Below, in pieces: positions 1,011-32,779 of a DNA stretch of 36,122 nucleotides. The first letter of the stretch is position 1. Each line of letters opens with the position of its first letter. Both the position numbers and the translations under genes were made by a program. The notes under the pieces were generated by a model. The model did no database searches. It had not been told where the DNA came from and saw only the letters and a program-made list of their open reading frames with translations. The stretch covers positions 1 to 36,122 of the IMG/VR virus record IMGVR_UViG_3300009149_000123; one strand, given 5' to 3'. This DNA comes from a virus.

Positions 1011-1508
1011 ATGTCTCAAGAACTTGCACTTCAAGAATTGGAAAACGAACTAAAGTTAGCTTTTGCTGACGCTTGGTTACGTTATCCTTCTGATCCATTT
1101 AAAGCAGCTTTAGTTGTTACCAAGGGTGACTCTTTAGCTGCTTTAAGTGTTCTTGACCGATATCAAAGAGATCCCGAACTATATGATATCAAAGCTGCAT
1201 TGATCGAAGAATACGGGGAAGAAGCTTTCTTACCAAGCAAAGAGCAAATGGTAAGGCAGGTTCTTGACAGAGCGGAAAGGGCAGTTGAAGACGCAGACTA
1301 TTGTAAGCTTATGGCTTTAGCTTTCGATGCAAGAGGTATGACAAGTAAAGCTAACGGTGGTGCAAATGTTGTAATCAATAACAACACTGACAATAGAACA
1401 ATGTCAATACCAGTTATGATTAACTCTGCTGGTAATGTTGCTTCCGACGAAGAATGGGAACAAGCTTTAATTCAACAACAGAAGACTTTGGTGGCACATG
1501 ACAGGTAG
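1011..1508 (+). CDS. terS: Terminase small subunit
   Basis: This 165-residue protein lies immediately before the large terminase and overlaps it by 11 bases. The small subunit recognises packaging sites on phage DNA and hands it to the large subunit. The first about 110 residues are predicted mostly helical, with a repeat-like pattern (YPSDPFKAALVV; EAFLPSKEQMVRQVL), typical of the DNA-binding and oligomerisation part. The C-terminus is Asn- and Gln-rich and acidic. AGGTAAG at about 1002-1008 serves as ribosome binding site and overlaps the upstream stop codon. The assignment rests on position, size and helical character rather than on a signature motif. Confidence 0.7.
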   Translation: MSQELALQELENELKLAFADAWLRYPSDPFKAALVVTKGDSLAALSVLDRYQRDPELYDIKAALIEEYGEEAFLPSKEQMVRQVLDRAERAVEDADYCKLMALAFDARGMTSKANGGANVVINNNTDNRTMSIPVMINSAGNVASDEEWEQALIQQQKTLVAHDR

Positions 1509-4500
1509 TTGGACCTTACCCACAGTTGAAGATATTCAGCGACAAAAAGAAGAAGAACGCAAGTCGTTACTTTCTAATTTTGATTCGCTTACTTCACGTA
1601 TGGGCGAAAGGTCGAAACTGTTACAGCGACTAACAGAAAAACCGAAGACAAAAGCAGAAGAACTTGGCGACAGGTTGGAGCATGAGAATACAATAGTGTG
1701 GGAACCTATCCCAAACTCTTCACAATCTTTTGCTATTGCTACAAGAGCACACCATACACTAATGCACGGTGCGCGTGGTCCGGGGAAAGATATCTCTGTT
1801 AATACATTGGTTTTGACAGATAGCGGTTGGAAGAAAGCAGGCGACGTTAACCTTACGGATATGTTGGTTTCGTCCGATGGTTCGTACACCAAGTTGTTGG
1901 GTATCTACCCACAAGGTTACAAAACAAACCTGTATTTGGTTACTTTTGACGATGGTTGTCAAGTTGTTGCTGGTGCTGACCATCTATGGACTGTGGGCAA
2001 CAATAAGCGATTCAAAAGAGAAGGATACAAAGTACATACAACAAAATGGTTGTATGAAGCTCCTAGTCAATGGGGCGTTCCTTACTTGTCTAGTCCAGCA
2101 GACGGTAAGAAATGGGAAGGTTTTGATCCGTATGCAATTGGCTTAATGCTTGGTGACGGAACAATGGGTTCCCAATACCCAACACTGTATTCGCAGGATG
2201 AGGAAATCGTAGCCTACATGGAAGTAGCCCACGATTGGAAAGTATACAAATACGATCTTTACCGCGCTGTTGCCACAAAGAAATCTCAATGGAAAGCTTT
2301 AAGAGAACTATGGCCTAACAAAGAAAAAGCCGAGTTCAAAAGTGTTCCCCGTGATTTGATGGTAGCCGATCCTGCTTCCAGATTAGCGGTGTTACAAGGA
2401 CTGATGGATACAGACGGTAGTATAGAAAAAAACGGTAACAAGTGTAGGTTTGTTTCTTTATCGAAACAACTTGCAGAAGACGTGGCTGAATTGGTAAGGT
2501 CTCTTGGTGGAAAAGCACATTGTTATTTTGAAAACAGACCATCCCCGAAGGGCGGTAAAGATCATCGCTGGCGAGTTAATTTCAATTGTCGTGATAAGTT
2601 TATACCATTTCGATTGACACGAAAATGGGAACGTTGCCAGACAACCAACAGGGTACAAAACCTTAGATACATCAAGTCAATTGCACCAACTTTTCCAGAC
2701 CATACAGTTTGTTTCAGTGTTGCTCATCCTTCAAAACTATTCGTTGTTCAAGGTCACGTTCTAACACACAACACAATCACCCAACTTATGCGGTTCAGGT
2801 CAAGAGTAGGGTTAGGTTACGGTGCTTACTGGCGTGGTGTTATCTTTGACCGAGAATTTAAGAACCTATCGGACCTTGTAGCGCAGTCTTTGAGATTTTT
2901 CCCAAAGTTTGAAGATGGTTGTAAGTGGTTAAAGTCAGCAACCGAATTTAAATGGACGTGGCCTACAGGTGAAGAGTTACTATTTAGGCATGTTAAAAAG
3001 TCAGAAGATTACGACACTTTCCACGGACATGAATACCCTTTCATTGGATGGAATGAATTAACAAAACATCCAACGTCTGAGGTTTACGACAAGTTTATGT
3101 CGGTAAACCGTAGTTCTTTTGATAGGGAAAAACATACACCTATAATTAAGACTAAAGACGGTTACAGGTACAACACACCAGACGGTGAACCATTACCGCC
3201 AATAACACTTGAAGTTTTTAGCACAACTAATCCTAATGGTCCCGGTCATAATTGGGTAAAGAAAAGGTTTATTGATGTTGCTAAGAACGGTGAAGTTGTT
3301 AAAAAAGAAGTTAAGTACTTTGACACACTAAAAGGTGAAGAGGTGACTGTTGTTCGTACACAAGTTGCTATCTTCGGATCATTTTACGAAAACCCTTACC
3401 TTGATCCAATCTATCGCGCAGGTTTGATTGAATCTTGTGCAAATAACCCTAACCTTAAAGCTGCTTGGATTGATGGGCGTTGGGACGCAAATAGCGGTGG
3501 TGCTATTGATGACCTTTGGAACAGCGAAATACACATTGTAGATCGGTTTAGAATACCGAAAGCATGGAAGGTAGACAGAACATTTGACTGGGGTTCTTCA
3601 CACCCGTTTTGTACTGTATTTTGGGCAGAAGCAAACGGTGAAGAAGTTAAGATGCCTGATGGTACAACTTGGTGCCCAGCAAGGGGTTCGTTGATTGCGA
3701 TAGAAGAAGATTACGGTTCGGAAGCAATTGGAACAAACAAAGGGTTGAAGCTATCCGCTAAAGACGTGGCTTTGCGTATTGTTGCAAAAGAACGTGCTTT
3801 GTTATCAGAACAATGGATTGTAAGAGGTGTTCAAGCTGGACCGGCAGATAATCAGATTGATAATGTGACAGAAAGCGACGTTGATACAATCGCTTTTAAA
3901 ATGAAACAACACGGTATTGCTTGGACTAAATCAGATAAGTCTGCTGGTTCAAGAATAATTGGTTTGCAGTTAATGCGAGATAGGTTGCAGTCTTCTGTTA
4001 CAAAAGAAGGACCAGCTATCTACTTCATGCGTAATTGTGTTAATGCAATCGATCTGTTGCCTTCACTTCCAAGAGATCCAGACAAACCAGACGATGTTGA
4101 TTGTTGGGTTGCGGGTACAATGATTGCAACACCTAACGATGATGTTCCAATCGAATTTATTCGGAAAGGTGACTTTGTAAGTACCCCTATCGGACCAAGA
4201 AGAGTTACCAAGAGTTATGTTTCCGGTAGAGCCGCCACTACGCAAGTTTTTCTTTCAAATGGTGTTTTGAGCGAAGGCACGAATGATCACAAAATTTTTG
4301 TAGAAGGTGCTGGTCTTGTTCCTCTGTCTCTGTTATATCATGGGCTTCCTTTAACCTTGGGCGTCTCAGAATGCCAAAATACCTTGAGTATGACGGAATT
4401 CTTTACACGCGATGGGGCGACCGCGATTACTATTCGCCAAACGGAACCGTCCTTGCTAACGGCGGAACTAGCTTGCATCGACAGGTTTGGATTGACAACA

Positions 4501-5103
4501 AAGGACCAATTCCAGAGGGATTTCATATCCACCATATTGACCACAATACAGACAACAATTACATTGAAAACTTGTGTATGGTCCAGGCTTCGGAACACGC
4601 TCGATATCATTTGGCTTTACGTCGCGAGTCAGGGGAACTTGCCGCTTCTCGCGAAGCTTGGTTGGACAATGGGGGGCGGGAAGTTCTTCGCAAGAATGCT
4701 CAAAAGATGCGTGAAAACACACCCGAAAGGAAATTTACGTGCTCTGATTGTGCTTGCGAAGTTAGAACAAAACATCCGTCTCAACAGTATTGCGAAATCT
4801 GCACAACTAAAAGAAACGCAAAAGGGTATAATTCAAAACCCTGCCCTGTGTGTGGGAAAGAGTTCTTCTACAAAACACATTCAAGAAAACAAGTTAAGTC
4901 TTGTAGTGCGAAATGTGGTTGGGTGCTACGAAAAAAAGCAAGTGTATAACATTACTGTTGAACAAGCAGGTTTGTTTTACGCTAATGGGCTACTATCTTC
5001 TAACACAGAAGCAGAAGATCATTATTGGGATGCTGTTAGATACCGTGTGTTAAAAGGTTCTAACAAATGGGCAACAAAAATCAAAACAAACTTTGTAAGG
5101 TAA
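1498..5103 (+). CDS. terL: Terminase large subunit precursor interrupted by two inteins
   Basis: The packaging motor ATPase/nuclease is encoded as a 1201-residue precursor. Removing residues 98-425 (intein 1) and 869-1169 (intein 2) leaves a 572-residue extein, a normal TerL size. The extein joins GARGPGK to TITQLMRFR, restoring a P-loop GxxGxGKT. A Walker B-like stretch EYPFIGWNE lies at about residues 512-520, a nuclease Asp at about 697 in FDWGSS, and joining PDDVD to TEAEDHYWDAVRY restores the C-terminal nuclease motif. Both inteins therefore sit in catalytic motifs, so splicing is needed for function. The ATG overlaps the terS stop, and portal follows after 4 bases. The reading frame is uninterrupted throughout, including under the nested HNH gene. 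Confidence 0.95.
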   Translation: MTGSWTLPTVEDIQRQKEEERKSLLSNFDSLTSRMGERSKLLQRLTEKPKTKAEELGDRLEHENTIVWEPIPNSSQSFAIATRAHHTLMHGARGPGKDISVNTLVLTDSGWKKAGDVNLTDMLVSSDGSYTKLLGIYPQGYKTNLYLVTFDDGCQVVAGADHLWTVGNNKRFKREGYKVHTTKWLYEAPSQWGVPYLSSPADGKKWEGFDPYAIGLMLGDGTMGSQYPTLYSQDEEIVAYMEVAHDWKVYKYDLYRAVATKKSQWKALRELWPNKEKAEFKSVPRDLMVADPASRLAVLQGLMDTDGSIEKNGNKCRFVSLSKQLAEDVAELVRSLGGKAHCYFENRPSPKGGKDHRWRVNFNCRDKFIPFRLTRKWERCQTTNRVQNLRYIKSIAPTFPDHTVCFSVAHPSKLFVVQGHVLTHNTITQLMRFRSRVGLGYGAYWRGVIFDREFKNLSDLVAQSLRFFPKFEDGCKWLKSATEFKWTWPTGEELLFRHVKKSEDYDTFHGHEYPFIGWNELTKHPTSEVYDKFMSVNRSSFDREKHTPIIKTKDGYRYNTPDGEPLPPITLEVFSTTNPNGPGHNWVKKRFIDVAKNGEVVKKEVKYFDTLKGEEVTVVRTQVAIFGSFYENPYLDPIYRAGLIESCANNPNLKAAWIDGRWDANSGGAIDDLWNSEIHIVDRFRIPKAWKVDRTFDWGSSHPFCTVFWAEANGEEVKMPDGTTWCPARGSLIAIEEDYGSEAIGTNKGLKLSAKDVALRIVAKERALLSEQWIVRGVQAGPADNQIDNVTESDVDTIAFKMKQHGIAWTKSDKSAGSRIIGLQLMRDRLQSSVTKEGPAIYFMRNCVNAIDLLPSLPRDPDKPDDVDCWVAGTMIATPNDDVPIEFIRKGDFVSTPIGPRRVTKSYVSGRAATTQVFLSNGVLSEGTNDHKIFVEGAGLVPLSLLYHGLPLTLGVSECQNTLSMTEFFTRDGATAITIRQTEPSLLTAELACIDRFGLTTKDQFQRDFISTILTTIQTTITLKTCVWSRLRNTLDIIWLYVASQGNLPLLAKLGWTMGGGKFFARMLKRCVKTHPKGNLRALIVLAKLEQNIRLNSIAKSAQLKETQKGIIQNPALCVGKSSSTKHIQENKLSLVVRNVVGCYEKKQVYNITVEQAGLFYANGLLSSNTEAEDHYWDAVRYRVLKGSNKWATKIKTNFVR
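1789..2772 (+). mobile_element. Intein 1: class 3 (W-C-T) intein with LAGLIDADG endonuclease, in the TerL P-loop
   Basis: The 328-residue intein begins with Asp (DISVNTLVLTDSGW, block A) and ends in THN, with Thr as the +1 extein residue. The N-terminal residue is neither Cys, Ser nor Ala. Block B reads AGADHLWTV, with Trp two residues after the conserved His. Block F reads TVCFSV, with Cys at the usual Asp position. Block G is VLTHN with Thr before His-Asn. These are the W, C and T residues that define class 3 inteins, in which the block F Cys makes the first nucleophilic attack. Between the splicing blocks are two LAGLIDADG motifs: IGLMLGDGT and LQGLMDTDG. The boundaries are set by restoring the P-loop Gly-Lys-Thr. 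Confidence 0.93.
4102..5004 (+). mobile_element. Intein 2: Cys-type intein in the TerL nuclease motif, carrying an out-of-frame HNH gene
   Basis: The 301-residue intein begins CWVAGTMIATP (block A), with GTNDHKIFV as block B (Thr-x-x-His). It ends in VYNITVE (block F, Asn where Asp is common) and NGLLSSN (block G, Ser instead of the usual penultimate His), with Thr at +1. The boundaries restore PDDVD-TEAEDHYWDAVRY. Only about 90 N-terminal and about 30 C-terminal residues look like splicing domain. The roughly 190 residues between them match nothing recognisable and are the alternate-frame reading of an HNH endonuclease gene at 4371-4949. This is effectively a mini-intein whose linker codons double as another gene. 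Confidence 0.9.
4371..4949 (+). CDS. HNH homing endonuclease nested out of frame inside TerL intein 2
   Basis: The 192-residue protein is read in the -1 frame relative to terL. It has the layout of free-standing phage HNH homing nucleases: an N-terminal Tyr/Gly segment (YDGILYTRWG), LHRQVW, the catalytic core GFHIHHIDHNTDNNYIENL and ASEHARYH. Two Cys pair sets follow (CSDC...CEIC; CPVC...CSAKC), probably zinc-binding DNA-recognition elements. It begins with ATG and ends TAA, entirely within the intein. No strong Shine-Dalgarno precedes the ATG, so how it is translated is unclear. Frame 3 is open from 4287, and a run of seven A at 4931-4937 lies just before its stop, so a frameshift product is conceivable. 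Its likely job is to spread the intein by cutting intein-less terL. Confidence 0.85.
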   Translation: MPKYLEYDGILYTRWGDRDYYSPNGTVLANGGTSLHRQVWIDNKGPIPEGFHIHHIDHNTDNNYIENLCMVQASEHARYHLALRRESGELAASREAWLDNGGREVLRKNAQKMRENTPERKFTCSDCACEVRTKHPSQQYCEICTTKRNAKGYNSKPCPVCGKEFFYKTHSRKQVKSCSAKCGWVLRKKASV

Positions 5104-18545: not shown

Positions 18546-20692
18546 TGGCACTTGGAAGTAACAACCAATACAATAGCGGTTCTAATAATGGTATACGCAC
18601 ATTCAACGGAATTAAAACTTCTGGTTTTAGAATTGGCGTAACTCAAAAAGCCGAAGAGTTAAACAACAATAACACAATTAACCTTGGGACAACTGTTAAC
18701 TTTGTACGCGCAGCCGATAGCGGTAAAGACAGAACAGGTTCTTCGAATAATCGTGTTAACCAACGATCAAATGAAGCAAGGTTAAACGAAAGAATACCAG
18801 ACATTTACGGTAAAGTGTTAAGCGTTCCTGATTTATTGACAAAAACGTACATACTAATTGAAAACGATGCATCTTTTTATATCAATTACTTTTGCATTGG
18901 TCGTGGTTCTTTTACAGTTAGTGAAGTTGAAGAGGCAGGAAGTACGATACTATCTTTAGGTGGAGAATACGATGTTTATGGACCTAACACTTCTCCGATT
19001 ACTTCACTAGGAACCATAAATTCTGTGTTTGTTCCAGCAATTGATTCAGTTGGTGTGAAAACTAATGACTTATCCGCATGTTTAGTCCTTAGGCCACCAA
19101 ACGCAATACTTGTAACAGATGCTTTAGAAGGCGACACAGAGGGTTTTGTTTTCGAAAGAGGACCATACGTATTTGAAAATTGTAATGGAGTATTAGTAAA
19201 TCTTGTTGCTAGTGATGGTACGAAAAGTCCGGGAGATTATGTAAATCCAGCTATTACAGTTACTGTGTATTGCAGGGCTGTAAATGAAGCGAATGTTCCT
19301 TTTGGTTCGACTTATTCTTCTGCCTACACGTACATTGGTTTTACAAACGATGCTTTAGCTACAAGCAGATACCGTAGTTTCAATTACGACTTTCCAATAA
19401 GCGGAAGAGTTCAGGTTGTAGTTAAAAGAACTAGCAATTACGCAGGTCATGAAACAGCATCTTTTCATAGAACAGTATACTTGTCTGGAATATACGGAAA
19501 AGTAGATATGTTAGGAAAAACTCAATTTGGCGACGTTACAACAATTAGAACTAAAATTCCAACAGAGGGTGACCTTTTGGCTAATGTTGGTACTGCATCC
19601 TTTAAGTTTACTACCACGTCAAGATCAAGTTTTTCACCAAAAGTCACATGCCTTGCCCAACGTAAAATTGACGGTGTTGCTACATCAGAATTTTCAAAAA
19701 TAGCTAAGTCTATTTGCTTAGACGAAAAGATAGGAAACAGACAACTTGCTGAGATTGACTCTGCTAGTCTCACTGCCTTACAATCTAGTATTACTTCTTA
19801 TTTTGGAACAAGCAAGGCTTGCGAATTCAACTACACTTTTGACGACGAAGCTATAAGTTTTGAGGAAACTTTAGGTTCGGTGTGCGCAGCAGCGTTTGTC
19901 ACAGTGTACAGAGACGGACCAACAATAAAATTTAAGTTCGAAGGACCGAACACAGCAAGTCGTCTACTTTTCAATCACAGAAACAAGATACCCGGAAGCG
20001 AAGTAAGAAGTATTACTTTTGGTTATCTTGGAGAAAAGGACGGGGTTCGTTACGAGTACACCGACATAACAGATGGTGCCAAACTGTACTACATACTTCC
20101 GATAGACGAATCTGCGGTAAATGTAGAGTCAGAAACTACTGTGGGCATAACAAACAAGCTTCAAGCTTACTTTCACGCACATAGGCGTATGAACCGTCAG
20201 CTTTACCAGAATACGGTTGTAGAGTTTGAAGCAACACAAGAAGCTAATGTTCTAAACATTAAAGACAAAATAGTTGTTGCTGATAATACGAGAACTCAAA
20301 CGTATGATGGTGAGATAGTTTCAAAAAGTGGTTTGACTCTAACGTTGTCTCAACCGTACACGTTTGAAGTTGGTGTAGACGCCACTATCTTTATTCAAAA
20401 CGTAACAGGTGAAGTTGAAGCTATCGGCATATCTGAAGTTGTCGGGCAACCTTATAAGGTGTTGCTTGACTCAGATACAAGCGAAGACTTATCTTTAGCC
20501 AATTCTGCTTTTACTAAAGCAACTTACGAGATAGTTCCAGACACTTCACTTAGGCGTGAAGCTTTTCTTGTGGAAGAGAAAGAACAAATTGATAAAATGA
20601 CGGTTCGATTGTTAGCTGTTAACTACGACGTTCGTTACTACAATGGAGACAATGACTACCTTACCGGTGTTGTTGATATCAACGGTAACTAA
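18545..20692 (+). CDS. J-like tail tip / central hub protein
   Basis: The 715-residue protein contains NERIPDIYGKVLSVPDLLTKTYILIENDASFYINYFCIGRGSFTV, the signature stretch of host-specificity protein J-like tail tip attachment proteins, and later SEVRSITFGYLGEKDGVRYEYTD. It probably forms the tail-tip hub and channel end. It is the last gene of the rightward late operon and overlaps the leftward polymerase gene by 4 bases. No separate tail fibre follows, so receptor contact may lie here or in the repeat-bearing tail protein. Confidence 0.8.
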   Translation: MALGSNNQYNSGSNNGIRTFNGIKTSGFRIGVTQKAEELNNNNTINLGTTVNFVRAADSGKDRTGSSNNRVNQRSNEARLNERIPDIYGKVLSVPDLLTKTYILIENDASFYINYFCIGRGSFTVSEVEEAGSTILSLGGEYDVYGPNTSPITSLGTINSVFVPAIDSVGVKTNDLSACLVLRPPNAILVTDALEGDTEGFVFERGPYVFENCNGVLVNLVASDGTKSPGDYVNPAITVTVYCRAVNEANVPFGSTYSSAYTYIGFTNDALATSRYRSFNYDFPISGRVQVVVKRTSNYAGHETASFHRTVYLSGIYGKVDMLGKTQFGDVTTIRTKIPTEGDLLANVGTASFKFTTTSRSSFSPKVTCLAQRKIDGVATSEFSKIAKSICLDEKIGNRQLAEIDSASLTALQSSITSYFGTSKACEFNYTFDDEAISFEETLGSVCAAAFVTVYRDGPTIKFKFEGPNTASRLLFNHRNKIPGSEVRSITFGYLGEKDGVRYEYTDITDGAKLYYILPIDESAVNVESETTVGITNKLQAYFHAHRRMNRQLYQNTVVEFEATQEANVLNIKDKIVVADNTRTQTYDGEIVSKSGLTLTLSQPYTFEVGVDATIFIQNVTGEVEAIGISEVVGQPYKVLLDSDTSEDLSLANSAFTKATYEIVPDTSLRREAFLVEEKEQIDKMTVRLLAVNYDVRYYNGDNDYLTGVVDINGN

Positions 20693-20705
20693 AACAAACT
20701 TAGTT
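20687..20705. terminator. Weak hairpin between the convergent operons
   Basis: AACTAA and TTAGTT are perfect 6-base arms around a 7-base loop exactly at the convergent junction. It is AT-rich and has only a short T-rich flank, so termination is a guess from position. Confidence 0.25.
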
Positions 20706-22656
20706 GTTCTTGCTGTGTTGTTTTGTAGAAACCTAAGTCTTTTAGAATGGAGTGTGATCGACGAATGTACCAAGAGTAATCAATATCTTTTGGTAGTATG
20801 CCTAACTCCATAGCAGGACAAGCGCCGTCTGATTCAGCAACTTTGTTTGTTGATCCTGCGGCGTTTGGTTTTTTATAGTAAATAGCCCCGTAGTCATCTT
20901 TCCTAACATACCAGCGAACAACTTTACCCAAGTCCACTTTGTCTCTTACAGCACCACCGTTAACACGACGAACGAACAAGAACTTTCTGAAGTCAGTACA
21001 AGACTTAATAATAGCGTCTATTGTTGTTGGGTGTGGATCTTTACAGGTCTGTAAGAATCGCATGACAGCTTCGGAGCAAATCGTAGCGTTTGGGTTAGTC
21101 ATCAAGCTTTCGCGGTCAGGATTACCCATTGACAGTTCATTGACGTAAGCCCCTTTGGCCTTAATCTTGCCGTCTGGACAAATGGCTATGTAGCTGTTCA
21201 CGTCGCGGCTATGTACGCTCTTGTAAGGCGTTTCCTCAGTCTCGAAGTTCGTTTGTCGTTCCCACTCAGCGACTACCCACAGATAGACGCCATGTAGCTC
21301 ACGTGGGCAGTTAATAACGATTCCGTCTGTGTTGGCGCTCAGAACCGGAATGCCTGCTAACTCAAGAGCTTCAATCAGTAGAAGCAATGATAGCTGACCA
21401 GTAAGCGTAACCTGAACTAACAAATGTGGCGAATAGAAGATTGACCAGCGATTACCAAGCTTACCGAAGCAACCGTTAATACAAATCTTTAAGCTTTCTG
21501 CTGTTTGTTTGTCACCCTGACTCTTAGCCAGAAGGCGACGTTCAACGATATCTCGATAAACGTTTAGGAAGTCTCGCCCAATATGGTGTGGGTACAACTC
21601 TTGGTTCAAAATGATTCGCGGGTAATAACTAGCCACGTCTCTATCAACAATCATATGTGTGTCTGTTGTGTAGATCGAACGTGACTTTTCTTCCGAATGT
21701 AAACCACCTATGCCTAAGTTGTAAACAGTTTTGTTAACTTTTACGGTCCAAAGGTTCTTTGCTGATATCTGATCGCCGCCTTCTATCACCTTGACTTTAC
21801 CTTCGTTGTCAATGACAAAGGTTGTGTTAAAGATTTTATCTCTAAGGTTGCGAAGTAATGGTGTTTGGTAGTTTAAATACTTTGGATCATTAAAGTTGAA
21901 TCGCTCGCCTTTGGGCGTAGGCGGGGCTTTTTGAAATTTGCCGGTCGTTGCCCGCAATTCAGATCCGATTGCTTTCTCCGCAATCTGTGCGTCCGACAGC
22001 GACCGCAAATCGATCCGGTATGTGCGAGACATTGACGATCGAAGTTCGATTGGCGTTTTCAGCTTGTGATAGAGCAAACCAGTCACGTCAAGATCATTAA
22101 CACAATAGAACCTTAGTTCACTAATCATTTCTTGGCTAACCGCCAAAGTGTGATCTATTGGTAATTCTTGCAATCGTTGTGAGTGCATTCTAGCACCATA
22201 ATGTTTCAACGATAGTTTTTGCGCGGCTGCTGGTGCTACCTGTTGCAAGTCAATATGATTAAAGTATTGGCATTGGTAGTTAAACTTAGCTTCTGTTTCC
22301 TTTGGTTTCATTTCACCAATAATAATGGAATCAGACAAAGCTTTTAATTGCTCTACCCATAGACCACACAGATATGCCCACAGTATGTGCTGATCGTAAT
22401 GACGGCTGTTGTATCCAACAAGCGTGTTGTTATCAATCATCCATCGCAACTTAGCTTTGTCTATTGTTGCAACTGCTGACTCTTCGAAGAATACGACAAC
22501 ACCAGTGTCGTAAGACTTCATTGCTATAAGTAGAAAGTTCTCGAATAGCTCAATATCAAAAAACCACACAGTGCCCTTGAGACTTATGATTTGTTCATCA
22601 GTCGCAAATAGCAAAGGTGGTTTAGTGTACGATTGTTTTTCGTAGGTTCGTGTCAT
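20689..22656 (-). CDS. Family B DNA polymerase with proofreading domain and C-terminal clamp-binding peptide
   Basis: The 655-residue protein has all 3'-5' exonuclease motifs: FDIE (33-36), NSRHYD (83-88) and YCVNDLDVT (184-192). Polymerase motif A is DRDVASYYP (338-346), motif B is KICINGCFGKLG (about 390-401) and motif C is ANTDG (441-445). Motif C has Asn where most family B enzymes have the first Asp of Asp-Thr-Asp. The protein ends QLSLF, a canonical bacterial beta-clamp-binding pentapeptide, so it may recruit the host sliding clamp for processivity; no phage clamp is seen. It is the last gene of the leftward operon and starts ATGA-overlapped with the preceding small gene. Confidence 0.92.
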   Translation of the reverse strand: MTRTYEKQSYTKPPLLFATDEQIISLKGTVWFFDIELFENFLLIAMKSYDTGVVVFFEESAVATIDKAKLRWMIDNNTLVGYNSRHYDQHILWAYLCGLWVEQLKALSDSIIIGEMKPKETEAKFNYQCQYFNHIDLQQVAPAAAQKLSLKHYGARMHSQRLQELPIDHTLAVSQEMISELRFYCVNDLDVTGLLYHKLKTPIELRSSMSRTYRIDLRSLSDAQIAEKAIGSELRATTGKFQKAPPTPKGERFNFNDPKYLNYQTPLLRNLRDKIFNTTFVIDNEGKVKVIEGGDQISAKNLWTVKVNKTVYNLGIGGLHSEEKSRSIYTTDTHMIVDRDVASYYPRIILNQELYPHHIGRDFLNVYRDIVERRLLAKSQGDKQTAESLKICINGCFGKLGNRWSIFYSPHLLVQVTLTGQLSLLLLIEALELAGIPVLSANTDGIVINCPRELHGVYLWVVAEWERQTNFETEETPYKSVHSRDVNSYIAICPDGKIKAKGAYVNELSMGNPDRESLMTNPNATICSEAVMRFLQTCKDPHPTTIDAIIKSCTDFRKFLFVRRVNGGAVRDKVDLGKVVRWYVRKDDYGAIYYKKPNAAGSTNKVAESDGACPAMELGILPKDIDYSWYIRRSHSILKDLGFYKTTQQEQLSLF

Positions 22657-23347: not shown

Positions 23348-23619
23348 GTTTCTTGTCCTTTTCTTTTAATTCTTAAATTTTCTAAACATTCGTCACATTG
23401 AACTAACCCGTTAAGGTTTTCGTTCTTACAACTTACACAAAGCCCTAATCTTTGGTATCTTTGTCTTCTTAGAGTTTCACCCTTTGACCTTTTCATCCTA
23501 CAGTTACCACAGCGAATAAATCCTTTAACTTCGCAACCACAACCTACGCAAACACCTTGTCGTCTGCGATCGTTATACAGTTGATTGATCAAAACAAAAA
23601 CTCCATAACTTATGGCCAT
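23344..23619 (-). CDS. Small zinc-ribbon protein with four Cys pairs
   Basis: The 91-residue protein carries CVGCGC, CGNC, CVSC and CDEC in order, spaced as two treble-clef or ribbon units, within a strongly basic sequence (RRQRYQR; RIKRKG). It is probably a nucleic-acid-binding or adaptor protein. It starts inside the last codons of the helicase (10-base overlap) and overlaps the next gene by 4 bases, so it is made together with the helicase. Confidence 0.75.
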   Translation of the reverse strand: MAISYGVFVLINQLYNDRRRQGVCVGCGCEVKGFIRCGNCRMKRSKGETLRRQRYQRLGLCVSCKNENLNGLVQCDECLENLRIKRKGQET

Positions 23620-25262
23620 TTGTCGGAAAAGTCAACTCTCAACTGTGTACACTTACGACAAGTGTTAAACCTAACGTAAGCTTCTTCTGTTGTTTGCGGT
23701 ATTTCATCGCCTTGGTGTTGACGCCACCATTCATGGGCTTTGTGTTTAGCTAAACCACTACCTTGAAAAGATAGGTAAACATTGATTGTGTTAATACCGT
23801 GGAAGTACTGTACTCGCAAAGAAGGTGGTTTACCAACCTTGTTATGAATGTAGGCATAACAATTGGTAACAGGAACTATTTTCACATTGGGTTCTGTTCT
23901 GGCGATGATAACTTCAGTTGAAGCAGAAGGTTTAATCTTTGTTTTGAAAATGAATTCATGCCCACACTCGCAGAGTCTTGCTGTTGTGTGGCAGTAGTTA
24001 CCGCATTCAGGACAAATCTTAATTGGTACGTCACCAGAACCGTCACCTTTCTTGCGACTTGGTATAGCGGGGTCGTTAATAGGGCCAAGTCTAGCGGTAT
24101 TACCTGCAAAGTCAAGTACGATGCAGTTTTTCTTACCACCTTCTTCAATTGCTGCTTTACGATAATGCAGGTGTTGTAAGTGTTCGAAAGTGTACCACGG
24201 GGCAAAGTAAGGTCTTGTTCCCCTGCCGTACTTCTGGATGTGTAGTGGTATTGACGTTGTTGGTCTCAAGTCAATGATTGCGTCAACCAAAGGATGATCA
24301 AAACCAGTTGTCAGAATGTTGTTTGAGACGATAGCTCTAAACCTACCTGTCTTGAACGCAGATAGTCTTTGTTCTCTTTCTTCGTCACTAATCTTAGAAT
24401 GAACACAGGTTGTTGGAATACCCATTTTATTTAAGATATTCATTATCTGTTCAGTATTCTTAATACCTGCTGCAAATACTATCCAACACTTGCGATCAAC
24501 GCAAAGCTGCGCGGCTTCGTTCAATGCTCTACCTGTAATACCCTGCCTTGCTATTGTGTCAATCAACTGTCTTTCGTTAAAGTCATTCGCTAATTGACGA
24601 ACATCGCTAACGTCAATAAAGCTTTCTGTTTGTTTTGGAATTAACGGAGATAGGTAACAGTCGTCAATCAGTTGATTAAACGCTTCTCTTCCCGTTATGT
24701 CAAAAGCTGTTGCGTTAAAGATTGAATCAACTTCAACACCATCCCGAAACACTTTGTCTGTGAGTCTACCCTGCCCCATACGAAAAGGTGTAGCGGTTAA
24801 ACCAATTACTTTGAGGTAAGGATTGTAGTTCTTCAAGTCGTCAATGACCTTTTGGTACATTGAGTCTTCGTTAGGTGAAAGCAAGTGTGCTTCGTCAATG
24901 AATAGTATGTCTCGCTTACCGATAGCTTTCACGTTACCGTTAACAGTAGCGATACCACCAAGTACGATAGGTGCGTGACCTTCTTTGACTCCTAAACCTG
25001 CTGAGTAGATTGAGGCAGGTACTGTTGGCCAGACGTTTCGTAAAGCTTTGTAGTTCTGTTCGATCAACTCTTTAACATGAGTCAATAAAACCATACGTTG
25101 ATCAGGGTATTGTTGCAACGCACGCTGCATGAACATAGGCGGGTATAACGATTTGCCAGTACCTGTGGGCATAGCTACAATCGGATTACCTGTTCCGCCA
25201 CTCTCAAAGTATTCAAAGGTTTTTTGAACAGCTTCTAACTGGTATGGTCTTGGGTATATCAT
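23610..25262 (-). CDS. SF2 DEAH-box helicase with zinc-finger insertion
   Basis: The 550-residue protein has Walker A MPTGTGKS, Walker B FIDEAH, motif III TATP, a helicase-C region (VHSKISDEER; SNNILTTGFDHP) and motif VI QKYGRGTR. After the helicase core a CPECGNYC...CECG zinc-binding site and a C-terminal domain (RVQYFHG...AHEWWRQH) follow, an arrangement common in phage replication or recombination helicases. ATP-driven duplex unwinding or branch migration is the expected activity; the replicative helicase is more likely the PrimPol fusion. It overlaps the small membrane protein by ATGA. Confidence 0.9.
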   Translation of the reverse strand: MIYPRPYQLEAVQKTFEYFESGGTGNPIVAMPTGTGKSLYPPMFMQRALQQYPDQRMVLLTHVKELIEQNYKALRNVWPTVPASIYSAGLGVKEGHAPIVLGGIATVNGNVKAIGKRDILFIDEAHLLSPNEDSMYQKVIDDLKNYNPYLKVIGLTATPFRMGQGRLTDKVFRDGVEVDSIFNATAFDITGREAFNQLIDDCYLSPLIPKQTESFIDVSDVRQLANDFNERQLIDTIARQGITGRALNEAAQLCVDRKCWIVFAAGIKNTEQIMNILNKMGIPTTCVHSKISDEEREQRLSAFKTGRFRAIVSNNILTTGFDHPLVDAIIDLRPTTSIPLHIQKYGRGTRPYFAPWYTFEHLQHLHYRKAAIEEGGKKNCIVLDFAGNTARLGPINDPAIPSRKKGDGSGDVPIKICPECGNYCHTTARLCECGHEFIFKTKIKPSASTEVIIARTEPNVKIVPVTNCYAYIHNKVGKPPSLRVQYFHGINTINVYLSFQGSGLAKHKAHEWWRQHQGDEIPQTTEEAYVRFNTCRKCTQLRVDFSDKWP

Positions 25263-30251: not shown

Positions 30252-30494
30252 ATGCAAAATTCGTTGCTTTTAACAACCGCTCGCTTGCTGCGAGATCGGC
30301 CTAAGTCGCTATCGCTCTACGACTTAGCTCAAGAATTGAGTGTATCTGTTAGCTGGCTTTCGTCGCTGCTGTCAGACGATCCACCCGAAGGTGCAAGTGT
30401 AACTAAGGTTGAAAAACTATACAACCGACTTGCACCATCGCCTTTAAATCTTAGTACAACAGAACAAACAATTCCGCAAAAACTCAATTGGTAA
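30252..30494 (+). CDS. Small helix-turn-helix-like DNA-binding protein
   Basis: The 80-residue protein reads LSLYDLAQELSVSVSWLSSLLSDDPPEG, a helix, short turn and second helix as in HTH domains (Leu-Ala-x-x-Leu-x-Val-Ser-x-x-Trp-Leu-Ser). A Pro/Ser/Thr-rich tail follows. GAAAGGAACC just before the ATG is a strong ribosome binding site. It is the first gene after the divergent promoter region and ends 5 bases before the PrimPol ATG. It is likely an early repressor or Cro-like switch protein; this is inference from fold and place. Confidence 0.65.
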   Translation: MQNSLLLTTARLLRDRPKSLSLYDLAQELSVSVSWLSSLLSDDPPEGASVTKVEKLYNRLAPSPLNLSTTEQTIPQKLNW

Positions 30495-30499
30495 ATCTA

Positions 30500-32779
30500 A
30501 TGGACTTTGGAAATTTACCGCTTGAAATGCGGAATCTACCTCAATGGGTATGTTGGAAATACGAAGACCGCGGTGATGCAAAACTATCAAAAGTTCCTTA
30601 TAATGCGAAAATGGGAACTTACGCTAACGTAAACGCTGTAGAAACTTGGTCATCTTTCCAAGTTTGTGCAAACGCTTTACCTAACTACAATGGTCTTGGT
30701 TTTGTATTGCACTCTTCCGATCCTTACACGATTGTTGACTTGGATCATACAGACGATCCAAACCTGATACAAAAACAAATAGAAATACACAATAAACTAG
30801 ACTCTTACTCTGAGGTATCACCTTCTGGTAAAGGTCTTCACATTGTTGTAAATGCTAACGTTAAGCGTAGTCGTAGAAGTGGACCGTTTGAGTTTTACTC
30901 TTCGGCTCGCTTTATGACGTTTACAGGTAACGTTTACAATAACAAACCTGTGATGTTTCGTCAAGCTGAGTTAAACACAATCTATCAAGATTTTGGTTTT
31001 GATCTACCAAGAGTCAACACAAAAGACTTGGACTTTGCAGCAACAGCTTCAGATTATGACGTTTATCAAACAGCGTCAAACGCAAAGAATGGCCAGAAGT
31101 TTCTCGACCTATGGAACGGAGATACACATACTTGGCACTTTGGCGATCACTCGCGAGCCGACTTTGCTTTGATCGATATCCTTACTTTCTATAGCAAGAA
31201 TAGAGAACAAATAAATCGAATGTTTCTTATGTCTGGTCTTGGGCAGCGTAAGAAAGCAAATCGCAAAGACTATGTTGACAACATGGTATCGAGATCATTT
31301 GACAACATTACACCAGACATTGACTTTAGCAACTTGGCATTGCCTCAAGTAACTGTACCCACACCACACCCTGCAACCGCGGTCAAAGAAGTCCGGGTTA
31401 AAGGTTCCAGCCATACAATAATAAGGGAAGAGAAAGACGAAAGGACTTACATTGAAGGTGGTCCGCTCAGTGTTCCACCCGGTATTGTAGGTGAGATAGC
31501 TACTTTTATCTATCAACAGTCTTACAAACCAGTTGTTGAGATTGCAATTACTGCGGCTATAGGCTTGATGGCTGGTTACTGTGGGAAAGCCTACAACGTA
31601 AGCAATACAGGTCTAAATATGTATCTGTTGTTGCTCGCTGGTACTGGTCGTGGAAAAGAAGAAATGGCGAAAGGTGCGTCAAAGCTTAATAACGCTGTAC
31701 AAAGGATATGTCCGTCAATCTCTCAATTTGAAGGACCGGGCGATATGGCTTCAGGGCAAGGTCTATTGAGATATGTAAGTGACCACCCTACAGGTTGCTT
31801 TATCTCGATTCTCGGTGAGTTTGGTATTAAGTTAAAGCAAATTAGCAAACCTAACGCTATGGGTTGCGACTTGATGCTTCAACGGGTTCTACTTGACCTG
31901 TACGCTAAATCTGGTGCGACCGACAAACTGTTGCCCACAGCTTACTCAGACGCAGAACGTAACACCAAAACAATTAACTCACCTGCAATATCAATAATCG
32001 GTGATTCTGTTCCGAATTGGTTCTTCGATAACATCGACGAAGCTATGATCGGTTCAGGGCTTCTAACTCGGTTCACTGTGATTGAGTACTTAGGAAGAAG
32101 GGTACGATCGAACTACGCGGCATCTGAGGTTAACCCGTCAAGTGATCTAGTTGAGAAGATCGCAACTCTTATATCAATCACTCAAGGATTCTTGCTGGCT
32201 AACCAGCGTTATCACATTCCTTTAGACAAAGACGCAAATCAATTAAGCATTGCGTTAGACCGTAGGGCAGATGACGAAATTAACAGTACTGTGGGAGTAT
32301 CTGCCGAACTATGGAATCGAGTACACTTGAAGACCTTACGTTGTGCTGGATTGATTGCAGTAGGGAAGAATCCCTACAATCCCATAATCGACGCAGAGTC
32401 TTGGTTGTGGGCAGAAAGGTTCATAGTATCTAGTGCGACGGCTTTGAAAGATCGGTTTGACGCAGGTTCAATTGGTAGCACGTCTGAGGAAATCCAACTT
32501 AACCAACTGACTGAAGTGATAGAAGAATATAAAGTCTTCATGCCGAAACATGATTCTGTTACTCACGATATGTACGTAAAAAGAATCATACCATTAGCTT
32601 ATCTGTCTTATATTCTGCGCGGGAAACCGGCATTCAAAAATGACCGAATGGGTGCGGCTAATGCAGTCAAAAAGTCAGTACAGATAATGATAGACTCTGG
32701 AGAATTAAGCACTTTGCCTAAACTACAGTCTCAGCAAATGTTTGGTCGTGGTGCGATTATGTATCATATTGACTACTAG
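30500..32779 (+). CDS. Primase-polymerase / helicase fusion (NrS-1-like PrimPol with DUF3987-type ATPase)
   Basis: I use ATG 30500 rather than TTG 30488. Residues about 1-150 form an archaeo-eukaryotic primase-type domain: LPQWVCWKYEDRG, YTIVDLDH with the catalytic Asp-x-Asp at 80 and 82, then SPSGKGLHIVV with the active-site His. Residues about 190-260 (DLWNGDTHTW...DFALIDILTFYSKNREQINRMF) match the small helical domain usual after it. A P-loop LLAGTGRGKEEM near residue 380 starts a DUF3987-type helicase. The 759-residue protein probably primes and unwinds phage DNA. Confidence 0.85.
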   Translation: MDFGNLPLEMRNLPQWVCWKYEDRGDAKLSKVPYNAKMGTYANVNAVETWSSFQVCANALPNYNGLGFVLHSSDPYTIVDLDHTDDPNLIQKQIEIHNKLDSYSEVSPSGKGLHIVVNANVKRSRRSGPFEFYSSARFMTFTGNVYNNKPVMFRQAELNTIYQDFGFDLPRVNTKDLDFAATASDYDVYQTASNAKNGQKFLDLWNGDTHTWHFGDHSRADFALIDILTFYSKNREQINRMFLMSGLGQRKKANRKDYVDNMVSRSFDNITPDIDFSNLALPQVTVPTPHPATAVKEVRVKGSSHTIIREEKDERTYIEGGPLSVPPGIVGEIATFIYQQSYKPVVEIAITAAIGLMAGYCGKAYNVSNTGLNMYLLLLAGTGRGKEEMAKGASKLNNAVQRICPSISQFEGPGDMASGQGLLRYVSDHPTGCFISILGEFGIKLKQISKPNAMGCDLMLQRVLLDLYAKSGATDKLLPTAYSDAERNTKTINSPAISIIGDSVPNWFFDNIDEAMIGSGLLTRFTVIEYLGRRVRSNYAASEVNPSSDLVEKIATLISITQGFLLANQRYHIPLDKDANQLSIALDRRADDEINSTVGVSAELWNRVHLKTLRCAGLIAVGKNPYNPIIDAESWLWAERFIVSSATALKDRFDAGSIGSTSEEIQLNQLTEVIEEYKVFMPKHDSVTHDMYVKRIIPLAYLSYILRGKPAFKNDRMGAANAVKKSVQIMIDSGELSTLPKLQSQQMFGRGAIMYHIDY

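Follow-up and report, generated by a model that had tools for sequence, protein, structure and literature searches.

Class 3 inteins are defined by the lack of a nucleophile at position 1, a cysteine at position 4 of block F, and the WCT triplet (PMC7891396, PMC5050341), a W-C-T triad that has been tied to this class (PMC7664689, PMC7891396). A total of 1,701 class 3 inteins have been reported, 82.5% of them with LAGLIDADG motifs (PMC7891396). In mycobacteriophages, the commonest intein host is the large terminase (TerL), and insertion between the lysine and the threonine is considered a 'classic' P-loop site (PMC5050341). One mycobacteriophage intein, BAKA TerL1-b, spliced in an E. coli reporter and cleaved inteinless DNA (PMC5050341). 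A different association between an endonuclease and its host gene is found in phage DNA methylases that contain the ShiLan domain, where an HNH endonuclease is inserted out of frame and where its describers detected no splicing domain of an intein or of an intron (PMC11855218).

The window studied here, namely the whole stretch of DNA analysed (a 36,122-base virus record), contains a single ORF of 1,201 aa (1498-5103) that is open throughout and spans a TerL gene and two inserted elements, the parts of which all lie on the + strand. Comparison with uninterrupted homologues delimits a 97-aa TerL N-extein (1498-1788) ending in ...HGARGPGK, within the Walker A motif. It is followed by intein 1 (1789-2772, 328 aa, from Asp1 to Thr-His-Asn), assigned by alignments and a structure model to class 3 with a LAGLIDADG endonuclease, and by a middle extein (2773-4101) which, according to its homologues, starts at Thr+1, thereby completing Walker A, and includes most of the nuclease domain. 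Intein 2 (4102-5004, 301 aa, from Cys1 to Ser-Asn and followed by Thr) is a class 1 element identified by alignments, a model, and the NCBIfam intein_Cterm profile, and is inserted in DDVD/TEAEDH (a slash marks junctions throughout). The C-extein (5005-5103), recognized from intein-free homologues, begins with the Thr+1 of intein 2. An ORF of 192 aa encoding an HNH endonuclease (4371-4949; Pfam HNH_3, 5e-14) overlaps intein 2 in a different frame. Once both inserts are removed, the TerL extein amounts to 572 aa, such that two independent splicing events would be needed to obtain a working protein. The middle extein shows 60-63% identity over 100% of its length with annotated phage TerLs (for example, that of Paracoccus phage vB_PmaS-R3), and this homology to proteins with Walker A and nuclease motifs identifies the host gene as a large terminase, as claimed in a preliminary description of the sequence. 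Elsewhere, the window carries replication-type genes at 20689-22656 (-), 23610-25262 (-), and 30488-32779 (+), comprising a weak B-family DNA polymerase match, a helicase resembling RadD, and a protein weakly similar to the NrS-1 polymerase domain.

The junctions of intein 1 can be placed without recourse to intein alignments. Among 80 TerL relatives from viral contigs, the Walker A motif is uninterrupted in the ~75 that reach it, so that intein-less relatives with the same P-loop, which the preliminary description had proposed to search for, do exist. Excision of intein 1 gives GARGPGKTITQLMRF, the exact sequence of the intein-free relatives L002-L004, and the joined flanks of the window read FAIATRAHHTLMHGARGPGKTITQLMRFRSRVGLGYGAYW, nearly identical to L002-L005. 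These intein-free TerLs (L002-L008 and others) put the N-terminal junction after the Lys at -1 (1786-1788) and the C-terminal junction before the Thr at +1 (2773-2775), both in the open TerL frame, which places the insertion at GARGPGK/T. The intein thus runs from Asp1 (1789-1791), a non-nucleophilic first residue supported by both its alignment column and the empty sites, to the terminal Asn328 (2770-2772). Both the span proposed earlier, 1789-2772, and the insertion between Lys and Thr proved exact. A shifted N-terminal junction is rejected by the empty sites, and so is a class 1 assignment, since residue 1 is Asp and the junction is forced by all intein-free relatives. No second carrier of intein 1 was found among the ~80 close TerL relatives, the window being the only one; judging from these sequences, this lone carriage is compatible with a recent arrival of the intein, but also with a copy that is being lost.

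Phage sequences retrieved by tblastn included mycobacteriophage TerLs and jumbo-phage helicases, and the best matches covered 99-100% of intein 1 at 27-34% identity, with E-values down to 3e-38. In the alignment of these phage inteins, His65, Trp67, Cys308, Thr326, His327, Asn328, and both LAGLIDADG cores are invariant. A scan of viral contigs with intein 1 as a single sequence yielded no close relative; an alignment used as query did find relatives, and a larger alignment was built with 94 inteins (80 viral loci, 13 phage sequences, and the window). The 80 loci were found via their endonuclease motifs and not via splicing motifs; therefore, retention of the WCT triplet did not select them. 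The complete H-W-C-T-H-N set is nevertheless present in 90 of the 94 inteins, the remaining four differing at the Trp only. In intein 1 this set corresponds to His65-Leu-Trp67 in block B (1981-1989, with Trp67, the W of WCT, at 1987-1989), Cys308 in block F (2710-2712), and Thr326-His327-Asn328 in block G (2764-2772, with Thr326, the T of WCT, at 2764-2766). Cys308, the probable initiating nucleophile according to the alignment and a structure profile, occupies position 4 of block F and is invariant in both alignments checked, and the terminal Asn328 is followed by the nucleophilic Thr+1. By contrast, position 1 is variable (A in 50 inteins, G in 12, S in 7, D, F, and E in 4 each, and others), and the insertion site is GK/T in 69 inteins and GK/S in 10. 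These columns support what had been read from the sequence of the window regarding the Asp at the start of block A, the diagnostic block B Trp, and the Thr preceding His-Asn in block G; the block F Cys is also present, slightly upstream of the position first given for it (about 2715-2720). A nucleophile at another N-terminal junction, which the preliminary description had named as grounds for refuting the class 3 assignment, does not appear in the 94-intein alignment, where Asp1 stays at position 1. The closest relatives of intein 1 are those of L102 and L103 (42-45% identity, clade support 0.999). The L102 intein occupies the same site in the P-loop of another TerL; in L103 the downstream extein does not resemble TerL and soon meets stops, possibly reflecting a chimeric contig.

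An AlphaFold model of the intein 1 precursor, with 10 extein residues on each side and 29 relatives as input, had a mean pLDDT of 90.4 and a pTM of 0.89. Compared using VIA-align, the whole model matched PI-SceI (1jva) with a Z of 27.2 over 319 residues, and its splicing part matched the class 3 DnaB intein 6BS8 with a Z of 20.3 at 1.5 A over 124 of 125 residues. The latter, to which the predicted HINT fold corresponds, is the top match among entries consisting of a splicing domain only, with the class 3 structures 6RIX and 6RIY within 1 Z unit. A family profile placed the block F Cys opposite its counterparts in the class 3 structures 6rix and 6bs8, and likewise opposite D107C, a Cys engineered into 6riz. 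Matches to phage inteins over nearly the full length and a predicted fold that fits solved inteins at Z 20-27 imply that the resemblance of intein 1 to inteins is not due to chance.

Several known systems resemble intein 1. The TerL of mycobacteriophage BAKA (JF937090) also has an Asp1 and the WCT set inside Walker A, its TerL1-b being, like intein 1, a class 3 intein with LAGLIDADG motifs; identity between the two is ~28%, as estimated with the copy of TerL1-b in Thibault, and TerL1-b is inserted one residue off, at GKG/S instead of GK/T. The inteins of mycobacteriophage NelitzaMV, Rhodobacter phage RcDurkin, and Escherichia phage AV108 share with intein 1 the class, the K/T site in the TerL P-loop, and the LAGLIDADG endonuclease, although with 27-32% identity, Ala or Arg as residue 1, and hosts from other TerL families. 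The class 3 inteins DnaBi1 of Mycobacterium smegmatis (6BS8) and DnaB1 of M. chimaera (6RIX) have the same catalytic set and a splicing fold that superposes on that of intein 1 at 1.5-2.0 A, but they are mini-inteins without endonuclease and are hosted by a helicase. Since the BAKA intein, shown to splice and cut, also begins with Asp, the Asp1 of intein 1 is neither new nor puzzling. Intein 1 is thus an ordinary class 3 intein: precedents studied by experiment exist for its class, its site, and even its Asp1. It shows again that position 1 is free in class 3, and it is one more well-documented example, with sister alleles that lack the intein, of the tendency, already known, of phage P-loops to collect class 3 inteins.

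According to the best explanation, 1789-2772 very likely encodes a class 3 intein of full length that carries a LAGLIDADG homing endonuclease and splits the Walker A motif of TerL between its Lys and its Thr. Following the mechanism of the class, Cys308 would attack the Lys-Asp1 peptide bond directly to form a branched thioester, the chain would then be transferred to Thr+1, and the cyclization of Asn328 would free the intein, rebuilding GARGPGKT and rendering the TerL ATPase able to work. His65, Trp67, and Thr326 would shape the active site, and Asp1 would be tolerated because residue 1 is not used in the first step. The lack of a nucleophile at Asp1 and the availability of Thr+1 would also suit a class 2-like intein, in which Thr+1 attacks the N-terminal junction directly and Cys308 is incidental. 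We give this option almost no credence given that Cys308, Trp67, and Thr326 are kept together in 90 of 94 relatives with Ala, Gly, Asp, or other residues at position 1, and that exactly this triad is the one tied to class 3 (PMC7664689, PMC7891396). We infer from its sequence that the copy in the window splices. As the source is a 36 kb metagenome virus contig, one may consider a decayed intein that has kept its fold but lost or slowed its splicing, leaving TerL inactive or dependent on conditional splicing. This seems highly unlikely, because all catalytic residues and both endonuclease acids are intact and the reading frame is not disrupted by any frameshift or stop; in addition, TerL is essential to phages, and an unspliced insert would break its Walker A motif.

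The endonuclease domain (Pfam LAGLIDADG_3, 2.3e-8, above the cut-off) retains both motifs, in agreement with the preliminary description: motif 1, PYAIGLMLGDGT (2128-2163), with Asp123 (2155-2157), and motif 2, ...LQGLMDTDGS (2386-2421), recognized by Pfam and alignment, with Asp209 (2413-2415). Lys184 (2338-2340), aligned with the conserved block D Lys, completes the two acids and the lysine that characterize LAGLIDADG homing endonucleases. In the class 3 reading, this domain, which has lost neither its acids nor the block D Lys, would cleave the P-loop codons of TerL alleles that lack the intein, and the intein would copy itself into the cut allele. Such mobility is plausible on sequence grounds, as there are intein-free alleles that encode the same residues around the insertion site. 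The intein might instead be stuck, splicing as proposed above with an endonuclease that no longer cuts, a situation compatible with class 3 and in line with the lack of another copy at this site among ~80 close TerLs. We consider this doubtful, though a possibility to be taken seriously, since Asp123, Asp209, and Lys184 are all kept and the model covers PI-SceI end to end.

Intein 2, on which the preliminary description is silent, matters more than intein 1. It begins at DDVD/CWVAGT, ends at Ser-Asn/Thr, and interrupts the TerL nuclease motif DDVDTEAEDH. The HNH gene lies between its splicing halves, and the TerL frame, +1 relative to the HNH ORF, has no stops over the window copy whereas the third frame has 14. 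The same intein 2 with the same HNH overlap occurs in L005 and L049. Between the window and a copy of this L005/L049 type, the HNH proteins are 79% identical and the overlapping TerL-frame segments 60%, with 31, 17, and 67 substitutions at HNH codon positions 1, 2, and 3, respectively, which indicates that selection acts mainly on the HNH frame. An AlphaFold model of intein 2 with 19 relatives had a pLDDT of ~90 for the splicing halves, which matched solved inteins at Z 20, and of ~30-40 for most of the stretch overlapping the HNH gene. An HNH domain in the intein frame is rejected because the HNH homology is confined to the other frame, and an intron inside intein 2 is not favoured, judging from the sequences, since the frame is open across all cases. 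The ribosome would read straight through to produce the TerL precursor, in which the HNH stretch may behave as a floppy intein linker; a second initiation at the internal start would make the HNH nuclease, which would in turn cut intein-free TerL alleles. We found no Shine-Dalgarno-like site before the HNH start of the window. By chance, the TerL frame of the window copy alone would be open with a probability of 0.4-6%, depending on the codon model, so that the argument against chance openness rests on the family.

Scans of the sequence collection with HNH alignments retrieved 102 HNH-bearing loci. In 88 of them (63 distinct), the frame at +1 to the HNH ORF is open, and in nearly every case class 1 intein blocks are present to the left and right of the ORF; the remaining 14 loci (8 distinct) have no such open-frame arrangement. 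In the hidden-HNH loci (L182-L284, accounting for 88 of the 102, together with L082, L285, and L286), mostly terminases, the intein frame is always +1 relative to the HNH frame. Across the 63 distinct loci, the intein frame contains no stops at all, compared with 328 expected by synonymous-codon resampling using flanking codon usage, or 197 using that of the HNH genes themselves, and resampling would leave only one to four frames open. In the 8 distinct other loci, which served as free-standing HNH controls, the observed stops agree with the expectation. Chance openness of the TerL frame is therefore rejected by both the resampling and the controls; although the 63 loci group into 20 clusters at 50% identity and hence do not count as independent cases, so marked a contrast is far beyond what chance would give. 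Shine-Dalgarno-like sites precede 46% of the hidden HNH starts against 17% of other ATGs. We consider it likely that intein 2 belongs to a widespread and apparently undescribed phage class 1 family in which the HNH endonuclease is a separate overlapping gene, with the intein frame at +1 to it, and in which the intein frame, encoding a disordered linker, has been kept open over ~140-240 codons. One TerL would then harbour two unlike endonuclease strategies, a class 3 intein with an in-frame LAGLIDADG in its ATPase centre and a class 1 intein with an overlapping HNH in its nuclease centre.

The nearest published case to the hidden HNH of intein 2 is the ShiLan domain. In both, the HNH endonuclease is out of frame and the host frame stays open; in contrast with ShiLan, the HNH region of intein 2 lies between class 1 splicing blocks, and these are complete. 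A literature search, with recent preprints incompletely covered, found no description of an intein with an overlapping HNH; the related accounts were limited to ShiLan and a brief note about a methylase insertion of that kind. The arrangement is also present in a Rhodobacteraceae phage genome (OP947163) and in two cultured phages, Tetrasphaera phage TJE1 and Acinetobacter phage Highwayman; in each case the annotation reads simply terminase. If the hidden HNH is translated and its product cuts, inteins can carry homing endonucleases as concealed overlapping genes that escape annotation because the whole stretch receives the name 'terminase', and TJE1 and Highwayman make the translation directly testable. 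Acinetobacter phage BP10 and Pseudomonas phage PAE1 have free-standing HNH relatives adjacent to their terminase genes, possibly representing the source state of the hidden-HNH inteins. When cellular genomes were scanned with the HNH alignment, there was one weak relative among the matches listed.

In L214 (2226-2954), an intein with an overlapping HNH lies outside TerL, at GYD/C...N/CSGF, in a host protein that looks like a tape-measure or cell-wall hydrolase. L083 and L084 (Pseudomonas phage PSV3) show homology to TerL in three pieces located in separate annotated ORFs, possibly because of an intron, an intein, or a frameshift. The TerL-like ORF of L205 contains two inteins, and that of L215 seems to combine a class 3 C-terminus (RCIGV...THN/S), a further in-frame intein, and an HNH-overlap intein, which suggests that a single ORF may hold three inteins.
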